Made by a program: the position numbers and the translations under genes. Under the pieces are notes generated by a model. The model did no database searches. It was not told where the DNA came from and was given only the letters and a program-made list of their open reading frames with translations. A stretch of DNA of 64,000 nt from Rhodanobacter thiooxydans (GTDB lineage: Bacteria > Pseudomonadota > Gammaproteobacteria > Xanthomonadales > Rhodanobacteraceae): positions 1,054,001 to 1,118,000 of the forward strand of contig NZ_CP127409.1 of the NCBI RefSeq assembly GCF_030291135.1, in the 5' to 3' direction. Shown here piece after piece: positions 38,224 to 56,913 of this stretch (positions are counted from its first letter, which is position 1; every line of letters starts with the position of its first letter).

Positions 38224-39030
38224 TCAACCGCCGCTTTTGCGCCCGGCCATGTGCCGCAGGTAGGCCAGCACGGCGTCGAGGTCGGCGTCGGACAGCGCGT
38301 GCGTGTCGAACCCCTGCATCTTCGCCTGCGGCCATCGCCGCAGCGACTGCGGGTTGCGGATGAACGCGCGCAGCAGGTCGGCGCGCAGGTATTCGGTGGG
38401 ATTGTGCGGGAGGTTCAGGTCGGGGCCGAGCCGTGCGTCGCCCTGGCCGTTGAGCGTGTGGCAGGCGAAGCAGGTGTGCTGGAATACCGCGAAACCCCGC
38501 CGCACTTCGCTGTCCGGCGGCAGCGAGGAAGCGGGCAGGATCGCCGGGAAGCGTTCGGCCACGTCGGCCAGCTTGCGGATGCTGGCCAGCTGGTACGGCC
38601 ACTGTTCCGGGCCGACGCCGGCGGCCTGCGGCCGCGTCCACACCACATAGAACGGCCCGGCGCGGCCATGCCCGGGCAAGGCAGGCCACGGCCGCGCTGC
38701 CTCCTCGATCGCCAGCCAGGCTTCGCTGCCTTGCGTGTTCAGCAGCAGCGCGGCGGGTATCTCGGCGGCAAAGCCATCGCCGGCGACGAACTGCAGGTGA
38801 TCGCCGGGATGGATGCCTTCGAGCAGCGCGGCCAGCGGCACCGCGCGGAAGTGCATCGTGCGCCGGAACGCCACGTCGCCGGGCACGCTGATGGTGCGCG
38901 CGTCGCCGCGCTTGAGCAGGGTTTCGCTGTGGTAGGTGACGACGCCGTGACCGAGATCCACCTTCAGCTCGGCGGCCGTCGCGGGCAGGGCCAGGCACAG
39001 TGCGAGCAGGTACGCGGCGAGCAGCTTCAT
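38224..39030 (-). CDS. Periplasmic c-type cytochrome with extra N-terminal domain
   Basis: The 268-residue protein has a signal peptide (about residues 1-20, ending TAA). Residues 21-150 form a beta-rich domain without a heme motif, of the kind often placed beside sulfite/molybdopterin-type oxidoreductases. That resemblance is weak. The last 95 residues are a cytochrome c domain with heme-binding CFACH at 187-191 and a possible axial Met in AKMQGF (about 235). It should carry electrons in the periplasm. The start gives the only version with a signal peptide. It is a single gene, with the sRNA candidate upstream on the other strand. Confidence 0.82.
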   Translation of the reverse strand: MKLLAAYLLALCLALPATAAELKVDLGHGVVTYHSETLLKRGDARTISVPGDVAFRRTMHFRAVPLAALLEGIHPGDHLQFVAGDGFAAEIPAALLLNTQGSEAWLAIEEAARPWPALPGHGRAGPFYVVWTRPQAAGVGPEQWPYQLASIRKLADVAERFPAILPASSLPPDSEVRRGFAVFQHTCFACHTLNGQGDARLGPDLNLPHNPTEYLRADLLRAFIRNPQSLRRWPQAKMQGFDTHALSDADLDAVLAYLRHMAGRKSGG

Positions 39031-39171
39031 GGTCGATCCCTGCAGAGGTAAAGAAATTGTAGACGGCGGATGCGCGAATCGTCGCGTCCGTCCGTGGCGG
39101 CCAGCCTGTCGGAAAGCTGAACAAACATCGTCATACAGGTTGAACTCATCTGCTGCCGGCCACACTAAGCA

Positions 39172-39298
39172 CGTGTATCGCCGTGATGGCGACAGGAAGT
39201 GGCGCAATGCATCGCGTCACTGAGGGGCCGGCATTTCCTCCCCTGGATGCCGCCTGACAAACCCCATCAGTCCTCCCCTGGCTGATGGGGTTTTTTTT
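39172..39298 (+). ncRNA. Candidate small RNA with C-rich loops (sX13-like)
   Basis: A strong intrinsic terminator on the plus strand has no plus-strand gene within 1 kb upstream. Just before it lie two more hairpins. The first is 39198-39221 (AGTGGCGC/GCGTCACT, one wobble). The second is 39229-39252 (CGGCAT/ATGCCG). The second loop and the terminator loop carry the same 11 bases, TCCTCCCCTGG, which could pair with GGGGAGG-type ribosome binding sites. A -35-like TTGAAC lies at 39140-39145, with no clear -10. Three hairpins with C-rich loops recall the Xanthomonas sRNA sX13. Homology is not proven, and the 5' end is an estimate. Confidence 0.6.
39259..39298 (+). terminator. Intrinsic terminator of the candidate sRNA
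   Basis: A perfect 12-bp stem (AAACCCCATCAG / CTGATGGGGTTT) with an 11-base C-rich loop is followed by a run of T residues ending at 39298. It is one of the clearest rho-independent terminators in the window. Confidence 0.9.
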
Positions 39299-39361
39299 GT
39301 GCGGAACAAGCGGCGCGGTTCGCGTGGATAATGGCCATACCGCTCCATTCCCCGGCTCCCG

Positions 39362-40546
39362 ATGATCATCGATTCGCTGCTCGACACCGACCTGTACAAG
39401 TTCTCGATGATGCAGGTGGTGCTGCACCAGTACCCGGCCGCCCAGGTCGAGTACCGCTTCAAGTGCCGCACGCCCGGCATCGACCTGGTGCCGTACATCG
39501 ACGAGATCCGCACCGAGCTGAAAGCCCTGTGCCAGCTTCGCTTCGCGCCGGACGAGCTCGACTACCTGCGCACGTGGCGCTTCATCAAGAGCGATTTCGT
39601 GGATTTCCTGGGGCTGTTCCAGCTCAACGAGAAGTACGTGGAGATCGCACCGGCCGCGGCAGGCAACGGCGAGATCGAGATCCGCATCTGCGGGCCGTGG
39701 CTGCACACCATCCTGTTCGAGGTGCCGCTGCTGGCGATCATCAACGAGGTGTACTTCCGCAACACCAGCGGTGGCCTCGACCTTGCCGAGGGGCGCCGGC
39801 GGCTGCTGGCGAAGATCGAACTGCTGCGTGACACGCCGGACTACGCCGGCTGCAAGATCGCCGACTACGGCACGCGCCGGCGCTACTCGCGGGTATGGCA
39901 GGAAAAGGTGGTGACCCTGCTGCGCGAGGGGCTGGGCGAGCAACTGGCCGGCACCAGCAACGTGTGGCTGGCGCGCAAGCTCGACCTGACCCCACTGGGT
40001 ACGCTGGCGCACGAATACCTGCAGGCGCACCAGGCGCTGGGACCGCGCCTGCGCGACTCGCAGGTGGCCGCGCTGGAGGCGTGGGCGAAGGAATATCGCG
40101 GCGACCTCGGCATCGCGTTGTCGGACGTGTACGGGCTGGAGGCGTTCCTGCGCGATTTCGACATGTACTTCTGCAAGCTGTTCGACGGCACCCGCCACGA
40201 TTCCGGCGACCCGTTCGCCTGGGGCGAGAAGGTGCTGGCACATTACGGCGCGAACCGCGTCGATCCGCGCAGCAAGGTACTGGTGTTCAGCGACGGTCTG
40301 GACATCCCGCGGGTGATGCAGCTGTATGCGCACTTCCGCGGCCGCTGCCAGCTCGCGTTCGGCGTGGGCACCAACCTCACCAACGATGTGGGGCCCGCGC
40401 CTCTCAACATCGTGATCAAGATGATCCGCTGCAACGGCCAGCCGGTGGCCAAGCTCAGCGATTCGCCGGGCAAGAACATGTGCGAGGACGAGGCCTACGT
40501 GGCGTATCTGCGGAAGGTGTTCGACATCCCTGCCACGCAGGAGTAA
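39362..40546 (+). CDS. pncB: Nicotinate phosphoribosyltransferase
   Basis: This is a 394-residue enzyme of NAD salvage, converting nicotinate and PRPP to nicotinate mononucleotide with ATP hydrolysis. The family opening [17 protein letters not shown] is at residues 4-20. YGTRRRYS (about 169) carries the phosphoribosyl-binding arginines. The block [15 protein letters not shown] (about 278-292) and [10 protein letters not shown] (about 339-348) are further signatures. The regulatory active-site His is present in the TRRRYS/RHD region as expected. It lies just after the sRNA terminator. A pnuC gene at the right end of the window also serves pyridine-type precursors. Confidence 0.95.
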
Positions 40547-52609: not shown

Positions 52610-52648
52610 CTCCCTCCCCTGCAGGCAGGGGAGGGCCGGGGTGGGGTC
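52610..52648. repeat. CTCCCTCCCC palindromic repeat, copy 1
   Basis: CCCTCCCCTGC and GCAGGGGAGGG form an 11-bp stem around AG, followed by CCGGGGTGGGG. Almost the same element is at 56750-56788. It separates the DUF962 gene from the convergent cytochrome gene and could end transcription. Confidence 0.7.
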
Positions 52649-56749: not shown

Positions 56750-56788
56750 TCTCCCTCCCCTGCTCGCAGGGGAGGGCCGGGGTGGGGT
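56750..56788. repeat. CTCCCTCCCC palindromic repeat, copy 2
   Basis: CCCTCCCCTGC and GCAGGGGAGGG surround TC, then CCGGGGTGGGG. It is nearly identical to the element at 52610. Right of it are three tandem TTGATC units (56795-56812). Confidence 0.7.
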
Positions 56789-56846: not shown

Positions 56847-56870
56847 CCTCCCCCTGCATGCAGGGGGAGG
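56847..56870. repeat. 24-bp perfect palindrome in htpG leader
   Basis: CCTCCCCCTGCA is followed by its reverse complement, ending GGGGGAGG. The right arm provides the strongest ribosome-binding-like sequence before the ATG at 56878, so the hairpin would hide it. It is related to the CTCCCTCCCC repeats. Confidence 0.7.
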
Positions 56871-56913
56871 AGTCAAAATGTCCATCGTCAACTTCAGTAC
56901 GGAACATCCACGC

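Follow-up and report, generated by a model that had tools for sequence, protein, structure and literature searches.

A candidate small RNA with two C-rich loops upstream of pncB in Rhodanobacter, co-resident with a polA-linked sX13-like match

Among small RNAs (sRNAs) with C-rich loops, the Xanthomonadaceae sRNA sX13 (Rfam RF02232), known from Xanthomonas, is the closest described counterpart of the locus analyzed here. Schmidtke et al. (PMC3771888) describe sX13 as always sitting downstream of polA; it carries three C-rich stem-loops (4C, 4C, and 5C). Experiments reported there showed that repression by sX13 requires the C-motifs of its loops together with G-motifs in the target mRNAs, and that repression of G-motif mRNAs is Hfq-independent. 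The same source mentions S. aureus RNAIII and H. pylori HPnc5490, whose C-rich loops contact mRNAs at ribosome-binding sites or G-tracts (PMC3771888); their likeness to the present element is an analogy only. Furthermore, PMC3927594 describes Rhizobiales RNAs with CCUCCUCCC anti-Shine-Dalgarno loops, in which the number of hairpins varies.

We analyzed a 64,000-nucleotide stretch of the Rhodanobacter thiooxydans genome (the window), where an initial annotation had proposed, between divergent genes, an sRNA with three hairpins, the last one a terminator, and with an identical 11-mer in two loops. The features are listed below; R1 denotes a covariance model built from 17 close copies of the element, whose E-values are rough owing to a short calibration.

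38224–39030, minus strand: gene for a cytochrome c domain protein (PF00034), the divergent neighbour; start set at ATG
39117–39122, plus strand: CTGAAC motif, a possible activator site or second −35-like site; 43 of 49 pncB-linked copies have CTGAA[CT] 31–62 nt before the element
39140–39168, plus strand: promoter-like block TTGAACT-N16-CACTAA, with −35-like TTGAAC at 39140–39145 and −10-like CACTAA at 39163–39168
39174–39298, plus strand: predicted sRNA of ~125 nt, ends inferred (R1 match, covariation, fold z −4.25)
39178–39192, plus strand: hairpin 1 (UCGCC...GGCGA), conserved stem, loop GUGAU
39198–39221, plus strand: hairpin 2 (AGUGGCGC...GCGUCACU), loop not C-rich
39222–39258, plus strand: hairpin 3, which bears the first C-rich loop and opens with the G-rich block GAGGGG
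39236–39246, plus strand: first copy of TCCTCCCCTGG, anti-Shine-Dalgarno-like loop (exact sequence match)
39259–39293, plus strand: hairpin 4, a predicted intrinsic terminator with the second C-rich loop; T-run at 39291–39298
39271–39281, plus strand: second copy of TCCTCCCCTGG, within the terminator loop (exact sequence match)
39326–39332, plus strand: GGATAAT, a possible −10 element of a promoter of pncB itself, downstream of the sRNA terminator
39362–40546, plus strand: pncB, nicotinate phosphoribosyltransferase (PF04095 and PF17767), the syntenic neighbour, outside the sRNA

As shown, the sequence, coordinates, and neighbours given for the candidate were correct, and its designation as an sRNA gained support from conservation and covariation (below). 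Four hairpins are present rather than three, the 5′ hairpin at 39178–39192 having been overlooked, and the reading of the last hairpin as a terminator agreed with the terminator scan, which predicted a terminator-like site at 39259–39293. The fold energy of the element was −60.3 kcal/mol, compared to −43.7 ± 3.9 kcal/mol for dinucleotide-shuffled sequences (z −4.25; 0 of 200 shuffles as good). In the predicted fold, the loops of hairpins 3 and 4 both read UCCUCCCCUGG; strictly, only UCCCCU is unpaired, with CC/GG as its closing pairs within the 11-mer TCCTCCCCTGG. This 11-mer occurs twice on the forward and never on the reverse strand of the 3,516,421-base genome, both times in the loops of the sRNA (reversed-pattern control, 1), and among 5000 mononucleotide shuffles of the sequence, 5 gave an exact 11-nt direct repeat with a spacing of 12–59. 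A small open reading frame within the RNA (ATG at 39186) was rejected: the ATG is ACG in two related copies (L009 and L017) and lacks a base in a third (L015), so the short frame is not conserved.

The conservation of the element was analyzed upstream of pncB in 81 sources, consisting of the window and the best 80 of 589 pncB relatives. An R1 match was observed in 49 sources, every one upstream of pncB on its strand. The 32 sources without a match comprised 24 Burkholderia/Paraburkholderia, four Luteibacter, three Frateuria, and one Fulvimonas contig having only 228 bases upstream. Across the 49 copies, 95.8% of cells were paired and 20 of the 39 pairs had changed on both sides. Both-side changes numbered 205 cells, a value that none of 500 shuffles reached (mean, 68), and slid structures paired in 29–45% of cells, indicating that the stems vary while pairing persists; the alignment was fitted to R1, and these counts therefore lean towards the model. 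Both-side changes were distributed over 7 of 8 pairs in hairpin 2 (94.8% of cells paired), 5 of 11 pairs in the helices of hairpin 3 (helices 3–5), and 8 of 12 pairs in the main helix of hairpin 4 (99% of cells paired). Five of the six pairs of hairpin 1 were invariant in the 49 sequences, so this hairpin receives no covariation support.

The C-rich stretches themselves were constant. CCCC was present in both stretches of all 49 copies, on covarying stems, which supports the earlier proposal of selection on both; relatives were checked for loss of both loops, and it was not seen. When each sequence was folded singly, a hairpin loop contained the terminator C-rich stretch in all 49 copies and the first C-rich stretch in 46 (exceptions L021, L023, and L047). 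The element thus has the conserved C-rich loops on covarying stems that characterize C-rich-loop sRNAs. The identity of the two loops is, as judged from these copies, a trait of close relatives only: TCCTCCCCTGG occurred twice in seven of the 49 copies and CCTCCCCTGG twice in twelve. The C-rich loop of the terminator could partly reflect terminator design. Separately, hairpin 3 starts at its foot with a GAGGGG/GGGG block (39222–39227) that all 49 copies retain; this block could pair with the C-rich loops of the same RNA or with a second RNA copy.

These data also bear on whether the hairpins arose by chance, from a terminator of the divergent region and a repeat-derived C-rich palindrome. The genome contains 30 exact copies of a REP-like palindrome, CCTCCCCTGCnnGCAGGGGAGG, including those at 52613–52634 and 56754–56775 of the window, and this palindrome and the sRNA loops have CCTCCCCTG in common. 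However, the element itself does not have the form of this palindrome, no further genomic copy of its loop 11-mer exists, and the stem covariation and the promoter-like block are kept across genera, which makes a chance origin extremely improbable. The element is very likely to be a genuine gene for a small regulatory RNA, conserved through evolution in Rhodanobacter and its relatives. As a separate observation, transcripts of the CCTCCCCTGCnnGCAGGGGAGG palindrome could in principle titrate the sRNA.

The relation of the element to sX13 was analyzed with Rfam models. No family reached its gathering score in a scan of the whole window. In a 332-base search, RF02232 was the top Rfam match of the element (positions 1–115, E 7.5e-05), but its 33.4 bits fell below the gathering score of 50. 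The layout proposed earlier, a chain of hairpins with C-rich loops resembling sX13, was borne out: both RNAs are ~115–125 nt long, both carry C-rich loops including that of the terminator, and both have G-rich sites near start codons as predicted pairing partners. In contrast to sX13, with its polA locus and three C-rich loops, the element lies upstream of pncB and has four hairpins, two of them with C-rich loops, the first hairpin being the conserved 5′ UCGCC/GGCGA stem. The 6C RNA (RF01066), an actinobacterial RNA, similarly presents C-rich loops on two hairpins, of which the second precedes a T-run; however, the element scored 25.3 bits against a threshold of 47.

The same genome contains a second, better RF02232 match at 3122140–3122253 (L003), which scored 36.7 bits, itself also below 50, lies directly downstream of polA, and has three C-rich hairpin loops. 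RF02232 was found at E ≤ 0.01 in 95 of 97 genomes of the window's family (30 over the cut-off), compared to 1 of 14 named control genomes (none over the cut-off); searches of more than 40 genomes, including those with RF02232, used stricter filters, by which weak matches are lost. In tables compared by eye, all 42 family genomes with the pncB-side RNA had a separate RF02232 match elsewhere, and RF02232 at E ≤ 0.01 reached the pncB-side copy itself in six of these 42, never over the cut-off. By tblastn, a polA neighbourhood was confirmed for 28 of 31 RF02232 loci (L003 and 30 others, some within the 42 genomes); polA was not detected at L102, which begins near a contig end, L108, and L109. It is therefore very unlikely that the element is a divergent sX13 orthologue of this genome, as could be supposed from its top Rfam match. 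The initial annotation had left open a divergent or a new member of sX13, and the latter is nearer the truth, given the sub-threshold score, the non-polA locus, the polA copy elsewhere, and the two C-rich loops. The best reading of these comparisons is that the element represents a second, co-resident sX13-like RNA with no matching Rfam family. Apart from this, one locus (L105, G056:C69) showed two RF02232 matches ~400 bases apart downstream of polA, possibly tandem sX13 copies.

The region upstream of the element was then compared among the pncB-linked copies. TTGAAC and CACTAA of the promoter-like block are separated by N17, and 47 of the 49 copies have TTGAAC-N19-CTAA with no deviation in spacing. 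In an alignment of 48 copies anchored on CTAA, which is therefore invariant by design, every base of TTGAAC and of the CA before CTAA was kept in 47–48 copies, and the spacer positions were mostly variable. The conserved CTGAAY (39117–39122) stands ~23 nt upstream of TTGAAC. A sigma-70 scan found no promoter match at the sRNA. Promoters of the GAACTT-N16-TCTAA type are sigma-E-type, and the spacing observed here resembles them. The pattern GAACTYN16WCTAA had one exact match in the genome, at the promoter-like block of the sRNA, and its reversed control also had one, so this rarity says little; a sigma-E-type promoter was not adopted, and no sigma factor is assigned to the block. By eye, many polA-linked copies in the family also have an AACTT...CTAA-type layout upstream.

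The constant position on the strand of pncB and upstream of it, in all 49 copies, would also fit a cis-acting pncB leader or attenuator (5′ UTR plus terminator) serving NAD salvage. Such a leader would be expected to show obligatory linkage, constant geometry, and a shared promoter, none of which was found. Among the 49 copies, 63 to 349 nt lie between the element and the pncB start, and 41 have a separate GGATAAT after the terminator: this motif was found no more than 110 nt from the start of pncB at 41 of 49 loci with the sRNA compared to 4 of 32 without it. The pairing of the loop with the pncB leader was predicted at −3.7 kcal/mol, weaker than the shuffled mean of −6.6 kcal/mol. The best matches of pncB itself include that of Rhodanobacter sp. 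Soil772 (95% identical).

Linkage to pncB was further assessed in the 97 genomes of the window's family, a sample that overlaps in species with the pncB-locus sample, so that the two counts are not independent. R1 matches were found in 65 genomes, and the surroundings were examined in 57: pncB lay downstream in 41 (in one case at ~1.5 kb), one locus was cut by a contig end, and 15 matches lay elsewhere. In the other eight genomes, R1 matched weakly (E 3e-5 to 3e-3), at positions likewise detected by RF02232. The 41 linked genomes, with the one cut locus, again favour a leader; matches away from pncB, in other genera, adjoined genes with RecN/SMC, AICARFT (purH-type), biopterin-hydroxylase (phhA-type), or GDSL-lipase domains. 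Together with the promoter-like block of the element and the GGATAAT before pncB, these displaced matches make a mere pncB leader unlikely.

Individual loci illustrate the range of neighbours, which were typed by Pfam for L147, L164, and L172 and by eye for the remaining loci. Matches L147, L166, and L146 stand beside a RecN/SMC-type gene; L164 has an adjacent purH-type gene and two tandem matches; L165 also has two matches; and L169–L173 have a GDSL-lipase gene and a phhA-type gene nearby. From such loci, the C-rich-loop RNAs seem to form a small multi-locus group in related genera, partly in tandem.

At the level of the order, R1 matched at E ≤ 0.01 in 40 of 200 genomes, 13 of them outside the window's family. 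Seven of these 13 were examined: six, in another family (f2), lay beside polA, and one, in a further family (f9), had neither polA nor pncB in its locus. Among these seven, no pncB-linked copy was seen outside the window's family in the 200-genome sample. At E ≤ 1e-6, the matches were confined to the window's family and, outside it, to two f2 genomes, where they lay beside polA. A description of the pncB-linked RNA was found neither in the open-access literature searched nor in Rfam.

This distribution also bears on acquisition by transfer of an alphaproteobacterial anti-Shine-Dalgarno RNA of the ar14/cuckoo type (RF02344), to which we take the Rhizobiales group with CCUCCUCCC loops to correspond. 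Like ar14 and SmelA075/A099 of the CCUCCUCCC-loop group, the element presents repeated, near-identical anti-Shine-Dalgarno loops on variable stems, and the ar14 model matched it at 30.5 bits. However, this score lies below the gathering value of 58.8, the loop is UCCUCCCCUGG rather than CCUCCUCCC, the bacterial class and the locus differ, and stringent R1 matches outside the family were limited to the two polA-side ones among the 200 genomes. Transfer of such an RNA is thus highly improbable, and the likeness is more likely to represent convergence.

The gene anatomy, its conservation, the stem covariation, the constant C-rich stretches, the promoter-like block, and the co-residence with an sX13-like match, all observed directly in the genomes, are best explained by a ~125-nt trans-acting sRNA gene with a putative promoter of its own, a predicted terminator, and two anti-Shine-Dalgarno loops, i.e., a second sX13-like RNA beside pncB; we give this reading a probability of roughly 0.77. 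The sRNA would be transcribed from its own promoter and end at the intrinsic terminator. By analogy with sX13 and with the Rhizobiales RNAs that bear CCUCCUCCC loops, it would probably act in trans through its C-rich loops on G-rich ribosome-binding sites. Most likely, a target mRNA would have its G-rich ribosome-binding site, (A)GGGGAGG, covered by either loop (UCCUCCCCUGG) through base pairing, which would block its translation. In Rhodanobacteraceae, the sRNA would act alongside the polA-linked sX13 copy, which could bind the same G-rich sites.

Predicted targets were analyzed from the distribution of the G-rich motif. GGGGAGG occurs 52 times in the genome compared to three times for the reversed control. 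This count was rejected as target evidence: many matches derive from the REP-like palindrome and the rest may be plain strong Shine-Dalgarno sequences, and hence no enrichment P value is given. The count in the window was likewise rejected: its three matches include the antisense of the sRNA itself, 1.27 would be expected, and as many were reached in 17 of 100 shuffles. The initial annotation had named htpG as a target because of a GGGGAGG near its start, which found no support: this G-tract lies inside a palindrome of its own (56847–56870) that resembles the REP-like repeat, and the htpG hairpin, at −21.8 kcal/mol, outweighs the pairing with the sRNA loop at −18.4 kcal/mol, so htpG was rejected as a target. 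As an observation in its own right, the htpG Shine-Dalgarno sequence is sealed in a perfect palindromic hairpin, CCTCCCCCTGCATGCAGGGGGAGG (56847–56880), just before the start codon, and through this repeat the heat-shock gene might be controlled in cis.

Sites of the form AGGGGAGG-N3-11-ATG numbered 20 in the genome, of which 14 looked associated with the REP-like repeat (by eye), one was the antisense of the sRNA, and five were left. Genes for TonB-dependent receptors (plug domain) lie downstream of three of these five (L209, L217, and L220); the genome has 26 plug-domain matches, 23 of them without a AGGGGAGG start site. In another genome of the genus (G093), 40 of 42 GGGGAGG sites were examined, one other being the antisense of the sRNA. 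A plug-domain receptor in that genome, 71% identical over 265 residues to the one at L209, keeps GAGGGGAGGA; counterparts of the other two receptor candidates were not found among the 40 sites. The loop was predicted to pair with the three TonB-receptor leaders at −18.8 to −19.1 kcal/mol, and minima for shuffled leaders were −17.4 to −19.8 kcal/mol, so energy alone does not single out these leaders. GGGGAGG is also close to an ordinary strong Shine-Dalgarno sequence, and the target idea is post hoc. Nevertheless, from these predictions, the three TonB-receptor genes are better candidate targets than htpG. A more far-reaching and doubtful proposal is that the sRNA is a dedicated outer-membrane regulator of Rhodanobacteraceae, in which two interchangeable loops might shut down selected TonB-dependent receptors beside sX13, its transcription being driven by a promoter pattern that matches exactly nowhere else in the genome. 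The enterobacterial MicA and RybB would be its functional counterparts in outer-membrane regulation.

By all the sequence evidence, the element is a new RNA of the familiar C-rich-loop kind. It provides a candidate new Rfam family with covariation support, together with specific and cheap target predictions. Redundancy of the loops, or a division of labour between such RNAs, would be testable in Rhodanobacter. The sX13-type C-rich-loop RNAs would thus not be one polA-linked gene but would have a second locus in many genera of one family.
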